This document shows, piece after piece, positions 2,588 through 45,259 of a DNA stretch of 64,000 nucleotides (positions are counted from its first letter, which is position 1; the number at the start of each line of letters is the position of its first letter). The notes below the pieces were generated by a model. That model did no database searches and had not been told where the DNA came from. It saw nothing but the letters and a program-made list of their open reading frames with translations. Location: IMG/VR virus record IMGVR_UViG_3300026097_001223, positions 118,330 through 182,329 of that record; one strand, given 5' to 3'. This DNA comes from a virus. A program made the translations under genes and the position numbers.

Positions 2588-2615
2588 TTGACAAACAAGT
2601 TGTTTAGTGTAAACT
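2588..2615 (+). promoter_or_regulatory. possible sigma70-type promoter for tRNA and B12 region
   Basis: TTGACA at 2588-2593 is a perfect -35 match. The best -10 at normal spacing is weak (TAAACT, 16-base spacer); a better TATAAA at 2615 sits 21 bases away, which is too far. It lies in the short gap before the tRNA and riboswitch. Confidence 0.35.
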
Positions 2616-2626
2616 ATAAACAAGTT

Positions 2627-2703
2627 GGACCTATAGCTCAGTTGGTTAGAGCAGTGAACTCATAATTCATTGGCCCCTGGTTCGAGTCCAGGTGGGTCCA
2701 CCA
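2627..2703 (+). tRNA. tRNA with CAU anticodon (Met or Ile2)
   Basis: Full cloverleaf: acceptor GGACCTA pairs with TGGGTCC (one G-U), D arm AGCTCAGTTGGTTAGAGC, anticodon loop CTCATAA, T arm CTGGTTCGAGTCCAG, encoded CCA at 2701-2703. Anticodon CAU means elongator Met or, if the C is lysidine-modified by host TilS, Ile reading AUA. The sequence alone does not decide; phage CAU tRNAs are often the Ile2 type. Confidence 0.93.
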
Positions 2704-2714
2704 ACTTATTCATA

Positions 2715-2900
2715 GCTGCAACTCGTAGTGCATAACTAAAACTAGGTACAGTTGAGGTCACCGTGAACATAGAGATTCATGGGTAATCGGGGAAGCAGTA
2801 AATCTGCACTGGCCTTGCAACGGTAGAGCGACACTGGGTCGCGAGTCCGAATGCCGTCCTCAATATTCTGGTACCGCAGAGCACAAGGTACTGCTCTGAC
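2715..2900 (+). promoter_or_regulatory. cobalamin (B12) riboswitch upstream of btuB-like gene
   Basis: The RNA leader contains the hallmark core of the cobalamin aptamer: CGGGGAAGCAG, AAATCTGCACTG, TTGCAACGG, and the B12 box GAGTCCGAATGCCGTCC at 2843-2859. Downstream are sequences that could form the expression platform. GTACC at 2871-2875 can pair with GGTAC at 2887-2891 or with GGTAC at 2913-2917, which includes the ribosome-binding region of the next gene. CAGAGCA at 2877-2883 can pair with TGCTCTG at 2892-2898. This suggests control of translation: adenosyl- or other cobalamin bound would shut receptor synthesis. Aptamer boundaries are approximate. Ligand type is not determined. Confidence 0.9.
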
Positions 2901-2920
2901 AACTTACAAAAAGGTACACA

Positions 2921-4531
2921 ATGAAAAAATCTATTCTCTCCATTGGCCTATTGGCCGTGTCTCTTTCTACGTCAGCAGAAACCACTGACATAACAATTTA
3001 TGTTACTCGAACACCAGTTGAACAAAGCATTGACACCAGGAGTTATACTAGAGCGGACTCTTTAGAACAACTGGAACAGTCTCCGGGTATTAATATTGTG
3101 CAGAGCGGACCGCGTGGACAAAATACCAGCATGTTTGCACGAGGCACAGAAAGTGACCATACACTGCTTGCTATCAACGGCATGCCTATCAAAGATCATA
3201 GCACTATATCTGGCAGTGATGACATTGGACAACACAGTTTGGCTGGTATTGATCAACTGTTGTTTATACGAGGTCCAGCCGGTAGCGCCTATGGGCCCAA
3301 TGCTGTAGGAGGTGCTGTTGACTTTATCAGTCGCGGCACAGGCGACAGTGTATCAGCATCAACTGGTACCTATGGTTATAAAAATCTGTATGGCAGTAAA
3401 CGTTTTGCAAAGGATTCCTTTGCTGGTAGCATTGCTGTTGAAACAGAACGTGCCAATGGCATTGATGTTCAGGACAACGGTGATCAGGACAGCTACACCA
3501 AGAAAAACATAAACCTGTATGGCAGTTGGATGCTGGATCAAGGCGACTTGTACTTGAACTATATCCAGTCAGACAATAGCAGTGACCTAGATGGATGGAA
3601 CGAAACCAGTAACTGGCAGTTTGATAACACACAACTTGGCTACGAAACACAAAGTGCTCGGATCGTCTACAATCAAGCAAATCATAAACGCATCTATGAT
3701 ACTTCCAGTGTGTATCTCAGCTCTGACGCTAGACTGTTGACTGAAAAAACCTGGAATCAATGGACAGTGAGCCTAGAGCACAGCAATCATGAGTACGACA
3801 GCAACAGTCGAACTGAGCAAGGGGCAGCTGTTGCTTATAATGATCAGTGGCTAAGTGCCGAATTGCGATCCGATGACACTGAGCTAGGGTCATTTGCCAG
3901 CTGGAGACTGGGCGTTTCTCACAGTGGTTTGCGAGCCAGCGTCGCCAACGGATTTAGAACCCCCAGCCTCTATGAAGTCTACGGTGATGATTTGTATGTA
4001 GAAGAAAACACAGGCCTGCAAGCAGAATATATCACTGCATATGAATTGGGATATAGAAACAGCTGGGTTGATACTGCTTTGTTTTTCAACCAAGAAACAG
4101 ACAGGATCACATACATCACTGATCCAGAGACCTATGTAGGACAGTACACAAACAACATCAAAGACACTGTTCGTACACACGGAGTTGAAACATCTCTTAC
4201 CAAAACTGTGGACGATGTTACTGTGAATTACAACTATACCTATACCTGGAGTGATGCAGACAAGCTGAGACAGCCAGCTCACATGCACAACCTTGCTCTT
4301 TTATATGGCAGTGTAACATATAGTGCACAGTATATAGGATCGCACCTGGACACTGACAGCAACACGTTTACTACAGTGAACATGAATGATGTGCTGTTAC
4401 AGAATTTGTCTTACAAGAAAAAATGGTTCACTGTGACGGTAAATAATATCACTGATCAACAGTATCAACGTCCAGATGGGTATCAACAATACGGACGCAC
4501 TATCACATTAAAGGCAGATTATGAATTCTAA
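2921..4531 (+). CDS. btuB: BtuB-like TonB-dependent outer-membrane cobalamin receptor, 536 aa
   Basis: Outer-membrane TonB-dependent receptor, most likely for vitamin B12 given the cobalamin riboswitch immediately upstream. N-terminal signal peptide (residues 1-19, MKKSILSIGLLAVSLSTSA), then a TonB-box-like TDITIYVTRTP. A plug domain spans roughly residues 45-140, with FARGTESDHTLLAINGMPI and IRGPAGSAYGPNAVGGAVDFIS. A long beta-barrel follows, ending in the terminal Phe typical of barrel proteins (KADYEF). At 536 residues it is shorter than the about 600 of bacterial BtuB, but plug and barrel both look present. The stop overlaps the next membrane gene, so the two are probably co-expressed. 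In a phage it could feed host B12-dependent enzymes during infection, or could block the receptor used by rival phages. Confidence 0.9.
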   Translation: MKKSILSIGLLAVSLSTSAETTDITIYVTRTPVEQSIDTRSYTRADSLEQLEQSPGINIVQSGPRGQNTSMFARGTESDHTLLAINGMPIKDHSTISGSDDIGQHSLAGIDQLLFIRGPAGSAYGPNAVGGAVDFISRGTGDSVSASTGTYGYKNLYGSKRFAKDSFAGSIAVETERANGIDVQDNGDQDSYTKKNINLYGSWMLDQGDLYLNYIQSDNSSDLDGWNETSNWQFDNTQLGYETQSARIVYNQANHKRIYDTSSVYLSSDARLLTEKTWNQWTVSLEHSNHEYDSNSRTEQGAAVAYNDQWLSAELRSDDTELGSFASWRLGVSHSGLRASVANGFRTPSLYEVYGDDLYVEENTGLQAEYITAYELGYRNSWVDTALFFNQETDRITYITDPETYVGQYTNNIKDTVRTHGVETSLTKTVDDVTVNYNYTYTWSDADKLRQPAHMHNLALLYGSVTYSAQYIGSHLDTDSNTFTTVNMNDVLLQNLSYKKKWFTVTVNNITDQQYQRPDGYQQYGRTITLKADYEF

Positions 4532-5009
4532 TATACGACTTTTTTTATTTTTAGCAGGGGCACTGTTTTTATTTAGAATTGTGCCGCATCCTCCAAACTT
4601 TACACCTGTTATCGCGGCAACTGTGTTTGCCGCGTGTGCAGGACAGCGTTTTTGGGAAACCATGGCTGTGGTGCTACTGGCAATGTTTGTGAGTGATTTG
4701 TTTTTAGGATTACATGCTGGTATGCTGTGGGTATACGCCAGCCTGGTACTTGTGTTCGTGACCTCAAGGTATATGAGTTTACTTGCAAGCACACTGATTG
4801 GACCTACAGTATTTTTTGTGTCTAGTAATTTTGCAGTATGGTTGAGCGGATGGTATCCTATGACCCTTGAAGGGTTGATTACTTGTTATGTGGCTGCCAT
4901 ACCATTTTATGCGACCAGCTTGACTGCGACAGTGTTCTATGTTATATTATTTAAAATAATGCAACGTTATCTCGCAGTAGCTCAGCAGGATAGAGCATCG
5001 GACTTCTAA
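4521..5009 (+). CDS. DUF6580-like membrane protein, putative vitamin transporter S-component, 162 aa
   Basis: Integral membrane protein with about five hydrophobic segments. Recognisable blocks RIVPHPPNFTPV, SDLFLGLH and ITCYVAAIPFYATSL match the DUF6580 family as I recall it, a family resembling substrate-binding S components of ECF vitamin transporters and found next to B12-regulated genes. It starts 11 bases before the BtuB stop, so both belong to the riboswitch-controlled unit; a role in moving cobalamin or a precursor across the inner membrane is inference. The last 13 codons (VAQQDRASDF region) read through the 5' half of the tRNA-Arg gene, so the gene end and tRNA overlap by about 39 bases. 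Confidence 0.75.
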   Translation: MNSNIRLFLFLAGALFLFRIVPHPPNFTPVIAATVFAACAGQRFWETMAVVLLAMFVSDLFLGLHAGMLWVYASLVLVFVTSRYMSLLASTLIGPTVFFVSSNFAVWLSGWYPMTLEGLITCYVAAIPFYATSLTATVFYVILFKIMQRYLAVAQQDRASDF

Positions 5010-5047
5010 TCCGAGGGTCGCAGGTTCGAATCCTGCCTGCGAGGCCA
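4971..5047 (+). tRNA. tRNA-Arg(UCU)
   Basis: Acceptor CTCGCAG pairs with CTGCGAG, anticodon stem TCGGA/TCCGA encloses loop CTTCTAA (anticodon UCU, reads AGA), T arm GCAGGTTCGAATCCTGC, discriminator G, encoded CCA at 5045-5047. Its first half overlaps the 3' end of the preceding membrane-protein gene, so the tRNA must be processed out of that mRNA. Confidence 0.95.
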
Positions 5048-5088: not shown

Positions 5089-5337
5089 ATGAACTTTTTT
5101 ATCATAGTACTATTAAGCGGATCGGTCAATGGAGCCGAAGAGTATTTTATTGTAACTGATCCAACATTTGAAACCATGGAACAGTGCGCAGATCATGGCG
5201 TTAACAACCAAAGTTCAGTGTTACAGGGCATGTACAATGCTACGGGTAGAACAAACTGGGACACAATAGCCTGCGTTGATAAAGAAAGATTACAATACAT
5301 GTTAAGAAATATAAAACCAGAAGGTATAGATGCATAA
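5089..5337 (+). CDS. small exported protein, 82 aa, unknown
   Basis: A short N-terminal hydrophobic stretch (MNFFIIVLLSGSVNGA) looks like a signal peptide or membrane anchor. It is followed by a small domain with two cysteines and the pattern TFETMEQCADHG. A similar TFTTMQECFQAREQ pattern occurs in the small protein at 11591, so the two may be distant relatives. AGGAAAAA lies just upstream of the ATG. Its stop overlaps the NadE start, so they are probably co-translated. Function unknown. Confidence 0.6.
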   Translation: MNFFIIVLLSGSVNGAEEYFIVTDPTFETMEQCADHGVNNQSSVLQGMYNATGRTNWDTIACVDKERLQYMLRNIKPEGIDA

Positions 5338-6091
5338 AACTCCAGAAAACATAAGCAATTGGATAAAAACCTACGCTGAAGATGCTGGACTCGAAACTCT
5401 AGTGGTAGGTGTAAGTGGCGGCATTGACAGTGCTGTAGTGAGCACACTGTGTGCAATGACTGGCATGAACACAGTGGTAGTGAGCATGCCTATTAGACAA
5501 AAGGACGAGCAACATGAACTCAGTGTTGATCATTGTTTGGCATTGCTTGAAAGATTTCCAAATGTTCACTGGGACACTGTGAATCTCACTGAAGCGTTTG
5601 AACAACTAGAAACACTGTTTGCAAACACGCAATACAACAGTGAATTAGCATTTGCCAACAGCCGCAGTAGACTGAGAATGATCACACTGTACCAAATTGC
5701 AGGAAGCACTCGCGGACTTGTGGTGGGCACTGGCAACAAGGTTGAAGACTTTGGCGTTGGGTTTTACACCAAGTATGGCGATGGCGGTGTTGACATTTCG
5801 CCCATTGCAGACCTAACAAAAACTCAAGTTTGGGAAATGGGAAAAACAATCGGCGTCGATCAACGCATCATTGATGCCAAGCCCACCGACGGATTATGGG
5901 ACGATGGTCGAAACGACCAGGATCAATTAGGCGGATTGACCTATTCACAATTAGAAGAAGCCATGCGCCTAGCAGATGCAGTGCGAGCAGGTGCTCCTCT
6001 AGAAGCGCATGAAAAACGACTGCTAGACAAGTACAACGAGATTCGCAAACCAAACCTGCACAAGATGAATCCAATTCCTGTATTTAAATGA
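5330..6091 (+). CDS. nadE: NH3-dependent NAD+ synthetase (NadE), 253 aa
   Basis: Last step of NAD+ synthesis: amidation of deamido-NAD+ with ATP and ammonia, in the cytoplasm. The ATP-pyrophosphatase P-loop SGGIDSA is at residues 29-35, followed later by the conserved SRSRLRM, LVVGTGNKVEDFGVGFYTKYGDGGVDISPIADL region and KPTDGLWDDG. The length matches the short, glutaminase-free form of the enzyme, so ammonia is the expected nitrogen source. All catalytic blocks appear intact. It overlaps the genes on both sides by a few bases. In phages, NAD-making enzymes can support metabolism during infection or restore NAD after depletion by host defence; which applies here is unknown. Confidence 0.95.
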   Translation: MHKTPENISNWIKTYAEDAGLETLVVGVSGGIDSAVVSTLCAMTGMNTVVVSMPIRQKDEQHELSVDHCLALLERFPNVHWDTVNLTEAFEQLETLFANTQYNSELAFANSRSRLRMITLYQIAGSTRGLVVGTGNKVEDFGVGFYTKYGDGGVDISPIADLTKTQVWEMGKTIGVDQRIIDAKPTDGLWDDGRNDQDQLGGLTYSQLEEAMRLADAVRAGAPLEAHEKRLLDKYNEIRKPNLHKMNPIPVFK

Positions 6092-11149: not shown

Positions 11150-11223
11150 TGGAAGACACAGGGTTTGTACTATTTTGTTTAGGTATTGCATTTTTGTTAG
11201 CAACCATGGTCGCTGATACATAG
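11149..11223 (+). CDS. possible 24-residue single-span membrane peptide
   Basis: GTG at 11149 overlaps the previous TAG by one base and follows GGGAGG at 11136-11141. It encodes a short acidic start (VEDTG) and one hydrophobic span (FVLFCLGIAFLLATMVA). It is too small for confident calling; the ribosome site and membrane-like content are the only support. Confidence 0.4.
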   Translation: MEDTGFVLFCLGIAFLLATMVADT

Positions 11224-11233
11224 CATAAAAGTT

Positions 11234-11241
11234 TATAAATA
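11234..11241 (+). promoter_or_regulatory. late promoter, perfect TATAAATA, in front of tmRNA
   Basis: TATAAATA matches the T4 late-promoter consensus exactly and lies a few bases before the acceptor half of the tmRNA gene. This suggests tmRNA is made late in infection by phage-modified RNA polymerase. Confidence 0.65.
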
Positions 11242-11243
11242 AC

Positions 11244-11560
11244 AGTATTCGTTGAGACGAAGTAATAGGTTGACGGACCCGGGTTCGACCCCCGGCTGCT
11301 CCACCAAAGATACATCTACAACTCCGAGAGAGTAGACCGAAAGGTGAAATAGTAGGAGACGAACGTGGTGTATCTTTGATGGGGCAGATTATGGATTCGA
11401 CGGCGACTGAAAGGCTTCGTGGAGAATCGTCAAGGCAGAAGACGTTAGGATTGGGGGTTCCCGGTCGAAGAAGCAAACTAAAGTAAACGCAAACGATGAA
11501 AACTTTGCACTTGCTGCCTAACTAGGACAGCGGAGAAACAAGGGATGCTTGGCAACAGAA
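11244..11560 (+). ncRNA. ssrA: circularly permuted (two-piece) tmRNA
   Basis: Transfer-messenger RNA, which rescues stalled ribosomes and tags the unfinished protein. The halves are in permuted order. The 3' acceptor part comes first: T arm CCGGGTTCGACCCCCGG, then CTGCTCC-A-CCA ending at 11306. It is followed by an intervening loop whose ends pair (CAAAGATACA 11305-11314 with TGTATCTTTG 11369-11378). The 5' part then starts GGGGCAGATTATGGATTCGACGG at 11381. GGGGCAG pairs with CTGCTCC, and CTTCGT in the 5' part can pair with ACGAAG in the 3' part. The tag is read from 11489-11521 as ANDENFALAA then stop. The outer ends (about 11244 and 11560) are estimates. Confidence 0.93.
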
Positions 11561-11590
11561 AGAACCTTGATTTTTGTGCACCTGCTAAAT

Positions 11591-11773
11591 ATGTGCATGA
11601 TTTATGTATTGGTGTTAATAGGCGTACTCAACTCTACAGCTGAAGTAGAAACTCTTGGCACATTTACCACCATGCAAGAATGTTTTCAAGCACGTGAGCA
11701 GGTTGTGGAATCCATTGGGAGACCAATCATCAACTATCAAGCAGTGTGTGTATTACATAAACACAGTCAATAA
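11591..11773 (+). CDS. small exported protein, 60 aa
   Basis: ATG at 11591 starts a hydrophobic signal or anchor (MCMIYVLVLIGVLNSTA) followed by TFTTMQECFQAREQ and a second Cys. The pattern resembles the small protein at 5089. The frame is open back to 11549 but that part lies in the tmRNA 3' region. Unknown function. Confidence 0.5.
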   Translation: MCMIYVLVLIGVLNSTAEVETLGTFTTMQECFQAREQVVESIGRPIINYQAVCVLHKHSQ

Positions 11774-13171: not shown

Positions 13172-13528
13172 ATGACTGAAACTCAACTGCTTTTTGCACT
13201 ATTCTCCTGGCTGGTTTTAACCAGCATTATATACACTATCACAGGTTGGCAACGTGTTGCTGACTGTTATCGTATGTGGTTTACTCGTGAATACTGGACT
13301 GACTATAACATTATAGAGGCTGCAAGCTGGATTGCCAAAGCCATAATTATTATTCCTGGATTGATTTTTGGAATACAAATTTGGCAATTTTACTTTGTTG
13401 CACTGGCTACCAGCATGACACTGATTTGGGCAAGCAACAAAAAGTTGTTACCAACTCTTGTAGGATTCAACACCCTGTGGATTTGGTTGAGTATGATGGT
13501 AATTGCGCAGAACATAATCGATGTATAG
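13172..13528 (+). CDS. membrane protein, 118 aa
   Basis: Three to four hydrophobic segments (LLFALFSWLVLTSIIYTI, ASWIAKAIIIIPGLIFGI, FYFVALATSMTLIWA, TLWIWLSMMVIAQNII). ATG follows TTGGAACAAG. It overlaps the halogenase start by 8 bases, so the two are probably co-translated. Not recognised; it could be a partner that places or exports the halogenase product, but nothing shows this. Confidence 0.65.
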   Translation: MTETQLLFALFSWLVLTSIIYTITGWQRVADCYRMWFTREYWTDYNIIEAASWIAKAIIIIPGLIFGIQIWQFYFVALATSMTLIWASNKKLLPTLVGFNTLWIWLSMMVIAQNIIDV

Positions 13529-15107
13529 AAAACCAGTAAAAAATATAGTAGTACTAGGTGGCGGCACTGCTGGTTGGCTTGCGGCAGGCTATATCAGCAG
13601 TCAACTGCCCGATGTCACCATAACCGTTATTGAAAGTGACAAGACAAAAATTGTTGGTGTAGGCGAAACCACTGTGCCACAGTTTCGTACACATCTCGAA
13701 AAGATGGGTTTACAAGAAAGTCAATGGATGAAAGCCAGCGGCAGTACATTTAAATATGGCGCACGATTTGATGGCTGGCGCACAGGATCGGACAGCAGGT
13801 GGCATGGGTTCGGTGATTTCCTAGGAGAGAAAAGTATTCTGAAAAGCACTGGCGAAATCAACAAGGCCAGTGCATCCAAGGAAACAGACCATGCAATTGA
13901 CTGCGACTACTGGTTTAAATTATTACAGCAAAACAAAATATCAGGATCTCAGTTGAACTGGTTCAACAGCGAAGCCTACTATCTAATAAAACACAGCCGA
14001 GCACACGCTCTAATGGATGGCACACAGGTTGCAAGTCGGTGTCCAGGGTATGCATACAACATCAATGCGTTCAAAGTAGGGCAAGCAATAAAAGATCTAG
14101 TGGCAATGCCAAATGGAGTTGTGCATAAAGTTGCACACATCGATCAAGTTGTTTACGCAGAAGATCAAAGTGTGGACTATCTCATAGACAGCAATGGACA
14201 AAAGCACACTGCTGATTTGTACATAGATTGCACAGGATTCCGTAGGTTGCTTATTGGAGAGCATTCAAAATGGATTAGTTTCAGTGATCGGTTAGGATGT
14301 CAAAACGCCATCGGCGGCCGAGTGCAATACAACGACGACCAAGAAACTGCTTGTGATCCTGTGTTACACACCACAGCAATGAGTGCAGGGTGGAGTTGGC
14401 GAGTACCTCTACGAGACGACACTGGATCAGGCTGTGTGTTTGACTCACGGTTTATAGATCCAGATGATGCCGAACAAGAGCTGATCGATCTCTGGAAAAG
14501 CAGAGGCAAAGAAATTGACATTAAAGTGCGTATAAAATACGACAACGGTATATTAGATCGCAGTGCTCACAGAAACGTTGTTGCAGTTGGTCTTGCTAGT
14601 AATTTTTTAGAACCATTGGAAGCAACCAGCATCAGCTTTACCACTCTTGCCAACGAATTAATAGTGCAGCTGATACAAAAACACAACGGACACTGGGGGC
14701 ATCGTGACAGCGAAACACTCTCGCGACTGATGCGACGAGAAATTGACTATACTACTGATTTCATTTGGTTACACTATGCGTTAACACAACGAAAAGACAC
14801 AGAATTCTGGCGCCATGTAGGACAGCATCGCGAACAGGCCTTGCAATTGGCATACAGATGGTACCTTGACAACGTCGACATACATCGTCGAGAAAAAGAT
14901 TTCGATCACACACGATATAACAAATTTGATTGGGCACAGATGCTTACTAGCCAGTGTGCCTATCATGACGTTCCTACTCATCCAGTTGACTCTCGTTTTC
15001 TAGAACGGGCACTGATTCAGTATCAATATCGAGATACTGTAGGACAATGGATGTCTCGCACCCTGCCTAGTCATTGGCAATATCTATTGCATATCAATAA
15101 CAGCTAA
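13521..15107 (+). CDS. flavin-dependent tryptophan-halogenase family protein, 528 aa
   Basis: FAD-binding loop VVLGGGTAGWLAA at residues 10-22. The halogenase signature WSWRVP near residue 292 matches the WxWxIP motif with a conservative Ile-to-Val change. The block VGETTVPQFRTHL and FKYGARF (about residue 77) supplies the catalytic Lys expected from PrnA-type enzymes, and NFLEPLEATS (about 362) supplies the conserved Glu region. The family halogenates indole or other aromatics using FADH2, chloride or bromide, and oxygen; a separate flavin reductase is needed and none was seen in this window. Relatives are known from marine phages. The substrate is unknown. Confidence 0.9.
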   Translation: MYRKPVKNIVVLGGGTAGWLAAGYISSQLPDVTITVIESDKTKIVGVGETTVPQFRTHLEKMGLQESQWMKASGSTFKYGARFDGWRTGSDSRWHGFGDFLGEKSILKSTGEINKASASKETDHAIDCDYWFKLLQQNKISGSQLNWFNSEAYYLIKHSRAHALMDGTQVASRCPGYAYNINAFKVGQAIKDLVAMPNGVVHKVAHIDQVVYAEDQSVDYLIDSNGQKHTADLYIDCTGFRRLLIGEHSKWISFSDRLGCQNAIGGRVQYNDDQETACDPVLHTTAMSAGWSWRVPLRDDTGSGCVFDSRFIDPDDAEQELIDLWKSRGKEIDIKVRIKYDNGILDRSAHRNVVAVGLASNFLEPLEATSISFTTLANELIVQLIQKHNGHWGHRDSETLSRLMRREIDYTTDFIWLHYALTQRKDTEFWRHVGQHREQALQLAYRWYLDNVDIHRREKDFDHTRYNKFDWAQMLTSQCAYHDVPTHPVDSRFLERALIQYQYRDTVGQWMSRTLPSHWQYLLHINNS

Positions 15108-43184: not shown

Positions 43185-43808
43185 ATGAAGTATATTTTTG
43201 TAGCTGGAGCACCGGGTAGTAAGTGGAGTTCAGTGGTTAAAAACATTTACTGGAGTCCAAGCTTGGATCAAAGTGACTATACAGAAGACAGAACCTATTG
43301 GCATGATGCCAGCGGCAAATATCAGCTTATGCACCTTGGCGCTTACTGGGATCCGGGCATGGAGTTCGGAAACAAGTTTGATCGGTTAAGCAGAACACCG
43401 CCAGAAATTGCAGAAAAAGAATTCCAACGTCCATTTAGAAAAGCCAAGGGCACTAAAATTATAAAAAGTCATGTGTTCTGTCATCAGTTGAATTATCTCA
43501 AAGAAGAGTTTCCAGATGATCCAAGGATTGTGGTACTGCGAGATTCAGACGCATGCCTGGGTTGGTGGGTGCGCTGTGGACACTTTGATATTACATATCC
43601 TGACTATGCAGAATACTATGTTGATTTAAAACACATGGCCAAGCAGATTGATCAGCAAAACACCGATGCAAGACAATTCTTGCAGGGAAATCCTGCAACC
43701 CAGGTACACAACAATCACGAACTTTGCCAGGCACTGGGCATACACCTACCGCCCAAGGAGTATGCTCAAGATTATGATAAAGCAAATATAGAAGTTTATC
43801 TAGCATGA
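43185..43808 (+). CDS. sulfotransferase-like P-loop protein, 207 aa
   Basis: N-terminal YIFVAGAPGSKWSSVVKNIYW resembles the PAPS-loop, KIIKSHVFCHQL and IVVLRDSDACLGWWVR sit where sulfotransferases have the SHxP and R..D blocks. Soluble. ATG follows AAAGGAA. Overlaps the TctA start by ATGA. Together with the genes at 6088, 28886, 39899 and 40605 it makes a set of divergent sulfotransferase-like proteins. Confidence 0.6.
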   Translation: MKYIFVAGAPGSKWSSVVKNIYWSPSLDQSDYTEDRTYWHDASGKYQLMHLGAYWDPGMEFGNKFDRLSRTPPEIAEKEFQRPFRKAKGTKIIKSHVFCHQLNYLKEEFPDDPRIVVLRDSDACLGWWVRCGHFDITYPDYAEYYVDLKHMAKQIDQQNTDARQFLQGNPATQVHNNHELCQALGIHLPPKEYAQDYDKANIEVYLA

Positions 43809-45259
43809 TAGAAATAGTCGCCGCAGTACTAGCAGGTACCGTTTACGGGTTAATCATTGGCATTATACCCAGTGCCGGCGCTACTACTGGACTGGTAGCA
43901 CTGTTTGGATTTATCGGATGGTTCATGAGTTTTGATCCTTACCTGGGTGTGATATTCACTATGGCAGTTGTTGCTGCTAGTACCACAGGCGACAGTTTCA
44001 GTGGTGTATTGTTGGGTATACCTGGCGCCAACAGCGCGGCTGCTACAATGGTAGATGGATTTCCATTGGCACTGCAAGGACGAGCAACATATGCACTCAC
44101 AGCCGCAGTTGTAACAAGCACAGCAAACGGATTAATCTGGGGCACACTGACCTTTGCACTGTTGCCTTGGTACAGTCAGTTGATCATGGTGTTTGGTATT
44201 CCCGAGCTGTGGGCATTTGTTTTTCTTGCATTAACCACTGTGGGTTTTGTGAGCAGCAAATATTGGTTACGCAGCATACTGGCTATCCTAGTTGGGTGCT
44301 TTGTGGGCCTAATAGGTCTGGATCCAAACACAGCCGCAGATAGATTCACATTTGGCTGGGACTACCTAGGCGACGGTGTGCAGCTGATGCCGTTTGTAGC
44401 AGGACTGTTTGCAGTTCCAGAAATTGTAGATGGACTGGTCAACAGAAAACAAACTGCTGAAATTTCTCGAGAAGGGCAACGTGGACAAACCGTACAAGGT
44501 ATACGTGCTGTTTGGACGAATTGCTGGGACGGACTGCGTGGTGGAGTAATTGGTGCATTCATTGGACTGTTGCCCGGGCTTGGTGGAGCAATGAGTGATT
44601 GGATGGCCTATGGTGCAACCACAGCAGCAAACAAAAATGAATCAGTGCCATTTGGCAAAGGCAACATCAAAGGAGTAATTGGACCAGAAGGATCCAACAA
44701 TGCACAAAAAGCAACTTCAATGATTCCCACTGTGCTGTTTGGCATTCCAGGTGCCAGTTTTGCTGCCATTGTAATGGGGTTGTTTATGTATCTAGATTTT
44801 GAACTGGGCACGCCTGCGCTAGCTAGCGACACCAAGTTTTTTGACAGCATGTTTATAGGATTCATGGCCGCCACAGTGTTGGTATGTGCAATTTGTTTGA
44901 TGTTCACTAGACATATAGCCAAGATCACATACTTGCCATACTGGATTTACACACCAGCATTGCTGGCGTTTGTGGTGTGGTCTTGTGTTCAGTACACCGG
45001 CGGCTGGGAAGATTATGCTGTGTTTGTAATCTGTAGTGCGCTTGGTATATTTGCCAAGTATTACAAGTTCAGTCGTCCTAGTATGCTGATTGCATTTATT
45101 CTTGCAGAAAGAATAGAAGCACTTAGCCTGCAAATGAGCAACTTATATACCGTGGATATGTTGTTAGACCGTCCACTGTTTTTGACCCTGATAGCATGTG
45201 CTTTTGCAATGTTTGTCTGGGGTGTGTTCTTTAATCAGAACAAACTTGATTACACATGA
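43805..45259 (+). CDS. tctA: TctA, large membrane subunit of a tricarboxylate transporter, 484 aa
   Basis: About ten to twelve hydrophobic segments. Signatures of TctA: GIIPSAGATTGLVALFGF, a LLGIPGANSAAATMVDGFPLALQGRA block near residue 70-95, and a second, similar half with LLPGLGGAMSDWMAYG, GVIGPEGSNNAQKATSMIPTVLFGIPGASFAAI. Complete in length. Works with a periplasmic TctC, encoded 9 bases downstream; the third subunit TctB is not found in this window. Substrate is probably a carboxylate, not definable from sequence. A second TctA end is at the window start. Confidence 0.93.
   Translation: MIEIVAAVLAGTVYGLIIGIIPSAGATTGLVALFGFIGWFMSFDPYLGVIFTMAVVAASTTGDSFSGVLLGIPGANSAAATMVDGFPLALQGRATYALTAAVVTSTANGLIWGTLTFALLPWYSQLIMVFGIPELWAFVFLALTTVGFVSSKYWLRSILAILVGCFVGLIGLDPNTAADRFTFGWDYLGDGVQLMPFVAGLFAVPEIVDGLVNRKQTAEISREGQRGQTVQGIRAVWTNCWDGLRGGVIGAFIGLLPGLGGAMSDWMAYGATTAANKNESVPFGKGNIKGVIGPEGSNNAQKATSMIPTVLFGIPGASFAAIVMGLFMYLDFELGTPALASDTKFFDSMFIGFMAATVLVCAICLMFTRHIAKITYLPYWIYTPALLAFVVWSCVQYTGGWEDYAVFVICSALGIFAKYYKFSRPSMLIAFILAERIEALSLQMSNLYTVDMLLDRPLFLTLIACAFAMFVWGVFFNQNKLDYT

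Follow-up and report, generated by a model that had tools for sequence, protein, structure and literature searches.

The window analysed here is a 64 kb stretch (G000:118330-182329) of a 182,329-base virus record, and coordinates without a prefix are window positions. Near its start, a leader resembling a cobalamin riboswitch precedes two overlapping genes on the same strand, which encode a BtuB-like TonB-dependent receptor (TBDR) and a DUF6580 membrane protein (Table 1). This cassette occupies the interval from tRNA-Met to tRNA-Arg; at another viral locus, L178, the receptor gene is similarly placed, with a tRNA on one side and tRNA-Arg(TCT) on the other. A sigma-70-like site is present ahead of tRNA-Met, sites of this kind being also common by chance (8 found against 5.2 expected). 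As the promoter scan gave no site from tRNA-Met to the aptamer, the tRNA and the operon may share a transcript. At the right border, the DUF6580 frame runs into tRNA-Arg, where positions 4971-5009 supply its final 12 codons and the stop; it looks as though the gene was severed and rejoined at this point.

Table 1. Features of the cassette and its borders (window positions).
Feature	Position	Strand	Basis or remark
Sigma-70-like promoter, TTGACA-16-TAAACT	2588..2615	+	Ahead of tRNA-Met; 10/12 matches
tRNA-Met (CAT), left border	2627..2703	+	ARAGORN; Rfam 71.2 bits
Cobalamin riboswitch aptamer, divergent member of clan CL00101, nearest RF00174	2738..2876	+	Covariance model, 29.2 bits
GGTAC, 5' strand of the predicted aptamer-closing helix, partner of GTACC 2871-2875	2745..2749	+	Whole-leader minimum free energy (MFE) fold
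GTACC, candidate switching strand	2871..2875	+	Pairs with 2745-2749 (aptamer closed, Shine-Dalgarno free) or 2913-2917 (Shine-Dalgarno covered)
Hairpin CAGAGCA-CAAGGTAC-TGCTCTG, between aptamer and ribosome-binding site	2877..2898	+	In both predicted states
Shine-Dalgarno AAGG (2911-2914) inside AAGGTAC	2911..2917	+	Sequence
BtuB-like TonB-dependent outer-membrane receptor, 536 aa	2921..4531	+	Plug PF07715, 48.6 bits; Foldseek; tree
Integral membrane protein of family DUF6580, 162 aa; candidate S-component of CbrT-like type	4521..5009	+	PF20221, 112.6 bits
tRNA-Arg (TCT), right border	4971..5047	+	ARAGORN; Rfam 72.2 bits

The record encodes a terminase as well as baseplate and virion proteins, from which we judge it to be a tailed phage. 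Its terminase large subunit (L004:4921-6471) is 54.6% identical to that of the Pseudomonas jumbo phage PA5oct over 93% and 51-54% identical to those of Phosso and Atu_ph07. Eighty terminase relatives in IMG/VR show 70-76% identity and sit on contigs of up to 342 kb, so the 182 kb record is probably a fragment of a jumbo phage. Several other genes of this phage were noted in passing. NadE (NAD synthase, 5330-6091) lies directly downstream of the cassette and has relatives in 406 viral stretches. TctA, the large membrane subunit of tripartite tricarboxylate transporters, is encoded twice, at 50-589 (the gene end, close upstream of the cassette) and at 43805-45259; at the viral locus L189, a TctA gene (L189:5767-7053) immediately follows the DUF6580-TBDR pair. 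The phage also carries a tryptophan halogenase gene (13521-15107, E 1e-89) and a permuted, two-piece tmRNA (11214-11612, tag ANDENFALAA) that scores 97 bits with RF04321 and 60 bits with alpha_tmRNA.

The preliminary description had placed a cobalamin aptamer directly ahead of the receptor gene. Indeed, the RF00174 covariance model matched the leader along its full length of 189 positions (29.2 bits, E 1.1e-5 over 451 nt), and a search of the whole record returned this match only (E 1.1e-6). The aptamer ends 44 nt ahead of the receptor start codon. Its score falls 2.3 bits below the RF00174 gathering score of 31.5, hence it is unlisted in a default Rfam scan and was detected with lowered thresholds; the E-value is still significant, and we class the element as a divergent clan member, not as a curated-level RF00174 member. 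A second model, R1, trained on eight viral leaders and one bacterial leader with the window excluded, gave a single match in the 64 kb (2769-2864, 19.9 bits, E 0.0033). R1 scores 18-26 bits on bacterial RF00174-type leaders against mostly 82-98 bits, and twice 60-62 bits, on viral AdoCbl-II (Cbl-II) leaders. The window score resembles the former, which puts the aptamer on the RF00174 side; judged from R1, it is probably not a member of AdoCbl-II (RF01689, cut-off 36.5 bits). No close relatives of the window leader were found, so the aptamer structure is without covariation support of its own.

It had also been proposed that GTACC (2871-2875) pairs alternatively with GGTAC at 2887-2891 or with GGTAC at 2913-2917, over the ribosome site. 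The second pairing is well supported by the computed folds: when 2866-2935 was folded alone, GTACC paired with 2913-2917 over the Shine-Dalgarno sequence (z -2.5, 2 of 200 shuffles as good). The first was rejected on energy, its constrained fold (-47.1 kcal/mol) being about 6 kcal/mol worse. Moreover, the proposal had missed a third copy of GGTAC, at 2745-2749, which is the partner in the MFE fold and closes the aptamer. This pairing has a probability of 0.58 against 0.22 for that over the Shine-Dalgarno sequence, and the constrained folds with the aptamer closed (-53.3 kcal/mol) and with the Shine-Dalgarno sequence covered (-52.8 kcal/mol) lie within 0.5 kcal/mol of each other. Since about 5% of shuffles also offer one pentamer three exact partners, the number of copies by itself carries little weight. 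Such near-equal predicted states fit a translational switch, in which the hairpin at 2877-2898 may be a stand-in for P13. At face value, closure stabilised by the ligand would free the ribosome site, the opposite of the usual case, in which B12 importers are repressed; this polarity is tentative, as the computed folds leave out any kissing-loop contact.

The receptor shows the plug domain and beta-barrel of the TBDR superfamily, as judged from PF07715, the AF2 model (pLDDT 83.8) and Foldseek, and by eye its N-terminus carries a putative signal peptide and the TonB-box-like ITIYVTRTP. BtuB was the best match in a PDB sequence search (E 7.8e-19, the next kind at 2.5e-7), and the BtuB equivalog TIGR01779 was the best NCBIfam model, at 123.8 bits for a cut-off of 599.7. 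The first 12 structures retrieved by Foldseek were all BtuB (best E 7.9e-29, TM 0.81), ahead of Cir (1.9e-23) and FepA-type receptors. The nearest solved structures are therefore BtuB, and the original view of the gene as a BtuB-like receptor is confirmed by sequence and by fold.

The second gene overlaps the first by 11 nt and its product scores 112.6 bits with PF20221, far above the cut-off of 27, as expected for the overlapping DUF6580-like protein described initially. The likeness to a vitamin-transporter S component, also suggested then, came down to one weak match: searched against the PDB up to an E-value of 10, the DUF6580 profile retrieved only 6FNP chain A (E 0.013). The 6FNP structure was deposited for ECF-CbrT, a vitamin B12 ECF transporter (PMC5997447); from its length of 182 aa and its name, 'Membrane protein', we infer that chain A is the S-component itself. 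The AF2 model of the phage protein is helical (pLDDT 81) and returned nothing below 0.001 in Foldseek, ECF S-components being among the better of its weak matches, none of them significant. No ECF module was seen beside the phage gene. Cys122 is invariant in alignment A6, not in all viral rows; BtuM, a solitary B12 S-component, has a conserved cysteine for decyanation.

Do bacteria associate the same two genes with cobalamin riboswitches? A single-protein scan of bacterial genomes was negative for DUF6580, which reflects a limit of sensitivity, as an alignment-based scan found at least 584 bacterial stretches with this gene. Eighty of these were kept. Fifteen loci with a TBDR near DUF6580 were examined, selected for having both genes. 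A cobalamin riboswitch above the gathering score (67-125 bits) was found in 14 of these 15, and in 13 it immediately precedes a TBDR>DUF6580 pair on the same strand; at L273 it precedes a divergent TBDR. At the fifteenth locus, L288, 127 nt separate the TBDR start from the end of the contig. The argument is one of guilt by association, but it is strong and suggests B12 as the substrate. An operon of this kind also lies in a 1.2 Mb alphaproteobacterial genome (L455), whose class is that of G101, the source of the Pelagibacteraceae locus L303; it has a Cbl-II riboswitch (71.9 bits), TBDR and DUF6580 arranged as in the window.

The operon is no one-off among viruses: the gene pair recurs, and Cbl-II riboswitches stand ahead of it in phages where genes for structure and replication lie alongside. 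Relatives of the TBDR are encoded by 68 viral contigs, and DUF6580 was also present in 29 of the 50 TBDR-bearing viral records checked; DUF6580 occurs on at least 101 viral contigs, many of which yielded no TBDR. (Here too, single-protein scans were negative for both genes for lack of sensitivity, and alignment-based scans found many.) The viral genes usually overlap and DUF6580 usually comes first, the window's order being seen in L389, L391, L395 and L397-L399. The seven viral leaders tested all proved to be RF01689 AdoCbl-II riboswitches (72-93 bits) ahead of the cassette. R1 finds strong Cbl-II riboswitches at 24 viral loci on 21 distinct contigs, a count biased by five that were fetched by riboswitch pattern. 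Some sit between terminase or structural genes and gp32/UvsX-like genes. Thus L374 reads terminase, virion protein, riboswitch, DUF6580, TBDR, SSB, UvsX-like, and L218 has the same order from the virion protein onwards, its terminase lying elsewhere in the record; L380 has terminase, virion protein, riboswitch and the pair, and in L420 and L423 the riboswitch is at the DUF6580-TBDR junction.

The distribution is nevertheless uneven. In viral relatives such as L225 and L189, the pair is present and no cobalamin riboswitch was detected. No phage hallmark genes were shown near the cassettes of the AT-rich groups L189/L213, so their phage status rests on IMG/VR. Neither DUF6580 nor the riboswitch was found in 50 records of related jumbo phages, many of which are fragmentary, and cultured phage records gave no match to two DUF6580 queries. 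TBDR matches in INPHARED were left uncounted, as they fell on apparent bacterial contigs filed as phage (Salmonella with 16S rRNA, Acinetobacter) or on short faecal contigs.

Other elements were noted around the viral genes. Upstream of the TBDR-DUF6580 pair of L398 lie RNA elements at 2671-2718 and 2956-3161 of that locus, a glutamine riboswitch (48.4 bits, above its cut-off) and a manA RNA (47.5 bits, E 4.6e-11, below its cut-off), followed by a stem resembling a terminator and a site resembling a promoter. A short conserved leader, TTACCGTATT(T/A)AACAAT..AGGTTGGGGT(A/G)AT(A), stands just ahead of DUF6580 in L225, L227-L229, L232 and L353-L358, and in L358 it comes in tandem after a Cbl-II riboswitch. 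In viral groups without DUF6580 (L176, L178, L202, L207, L187), a short membrane-type frame with the common stretch LELWC.AY.L lies just upstream of the TBDR. In several of L382-L394, a frame of 118-120 aa overlaps the DUF6580 start; it resembles a beta-barrel end, is unmatched by the TBDR profile and is perhaps a different outer-membrane partner.

In a careful TBDR tree, 18 viral receptors, including that of the window, form a clade with one bacterial receptor (L455; support 100/99). This clade adjoins Pelagibacteraceae and SAR116 rows (98/95), in agreement with a larger quick tree; the window receptor is a long branch within it and its nearest kin are unsure. The bacterial sampling of the trees is only what the scans returned. 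Viral and bacterial rows are intermixed in the DUF6580 tree (5 changes), so this tree does not show a single transfer. In the best reading, the phage operon derives from a bacterial riboswitch-btuB-DUF6580 operon, probably of alphaproteobacterial source according to the TBDR tree.

We consider a phage-encoded B12-scavenging operon of bacterial origin to be the best reading of the locus, and a quite probable one. It agrees with the riboswitch-controlled B12 uptake put forward in the preliminary description, for which the aptamer match, the gene identities, the BtuB sequence and fold, the bacterial operon context, the recurrence in viruses and the DUF6580-CbrT match now speak, all obtained by computation; ligand binding, transport, regulation with its direction and the benefit to the phage are what we infer from them. 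By this reading, the leader would sense cellular cobalamin and set the translation of both overlapping genes. The BtuB-type receptor would bring cobalamins over the host outer membrane, powered through the host TonB-ExbBD, and the DUF6580 protein, acting either by itself or as the S-component of an ECF module of the host, would move them on over the inner membrane. During phage replication, more B12 would thus be available in the infected cell to B12-dependent host enzymes, such as methionine synthase. We assume a benefit through host enzymes because no PF02310 B12-binding domain was detected in the record (nor in the Cbl-II phages tested), with the reservation that PF02310 misses some B12 enzymes, and the phage has a class I ribonucleotide reductase, which leaves no phage enzyme found to require B12. 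Supply of B12 to a phage class II ribonucleotide reductase was rejected for this record, which encodes the class I proteins NrdA and NrdB.

The receptor might instead import another substrate, a siderophore or only cobinamide-like corrinoids, under a leader that was inherited and is drifting. The short receptor (536 aa against 614 in E. coli BtuB, to which it is about 22% identical in the fold alignment), the aptamer below the gathering score and viral pairs such as L225 and L189 that show no cobalamin riboswitch would all agree with this. However, BtuB precedes Cir and FepA-type receptors among the fold matches, in bacteria the pair goes with strong cobalamin riboswitches and other viruses retain strong Cbl-II riboswitches, and we hold a different substrate to be unlikely. 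Less likely still is a role at the surface only, close to the receptor masking raised in the preliminary description. BtuB is a receptor for phages and colicins, so a relative of it in sequence and fold, whose PDB match list includes BtuB with colicin E3, could replace or dilute the host protein and shield the infected cell from BtuB-using phages or colicin-like toxins; such a role would need neither the accompanying DUF6580 gene nor a B12 sensor. Finally, that bacterial DNA was joined wrongly into a viral contig, as the absence of the cassette from the 50 relatives and the existence of bacterial homologues might suggest, was considered and rejected as highly improbable, because tRNAs and phage genes flank the cassette on both sides (viral-type NadE, baseplate-type proteins, terminase), the receptor clusters with viral receptors and other phages have the pair beside terminase, SSB and UvsX-like genes.

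In the sea B12 is scarce, and many bacteria are unable to make it. If the B12-scavenging reading is true, infection alters who captures B12, viral import of a nutrient is governed by a metabolite riboswitch, natural carriers are provided for a riboswitch class described from marine DNA, and DUF6580, a family without an assigned function, gains a testable role. More broadly, many viruses, mostly marine on circumstantial grounds, may share an old, virus-adapted module of BtuB-like receptor and CbrT-like DUF6580 protein under viral cobalamin riboswitches, viruses being a main home of the marine AdoCbl-II class; for this wider proposal we see the balance as even. RF01689 was first listed as 'AdoCbl-variant, Marine' with no carrier given, and manA and wcaG RNAs have been reported in cyanophages (PMC2864571). 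Phage riboswitches are known but rare, being of the glutamine type in phage Melnitz and pelagimyophages; the host of Melnitz carries a single cobalamin riboswitch, which precedes btuB (PMC9004378). The open-access literature searched yielded no account of phage-borne B12 uptake or of a phage BtuB/DUF6580 operon. The parts were known already and, within that literature, their combination in viruses seems new.

Compared with known systems, the window phage is like the marine Melnitz and pelagimyophages in having a predicted metabolite riboswitch and a two-piece tmRNA, whereas theirs is a glutamine riboswitch and no B12 uptake genes were described (PMC9004378). The aptamer is of the same clan as RF01689, strong examples of which stand before the DUF6580-TBDR pair of other phages, but is closer to RF00174, given its low R1 score beside most viral ones. 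The receptor has the plug, barrel and TonB-box-like N-terminus of E. coli BtuB; it differs in its shorter length, identity of 20-23% and score below the TIGR01779 cut-off. The DUF6580 protein is a helical membrane protein similar in length to CbrT (6FNP, PMC5997447), its profile's only PDB sequence match, although that match is weak, the fold match is not significant and the phage gene has no ECF module in view. The closest parallel in organization is provided by the bacterial riboswitch-btuB-like TBDR-DUF6580 operons (such as L274, L278, L303 and L455): these are chromosomal, whereas the window genes overlap, wedged between tRNAs behind a weaker aptamer, and the window TBDR is only 36-38% identical to its nearest relatives, but the three parts, their order and their strand are common to both.
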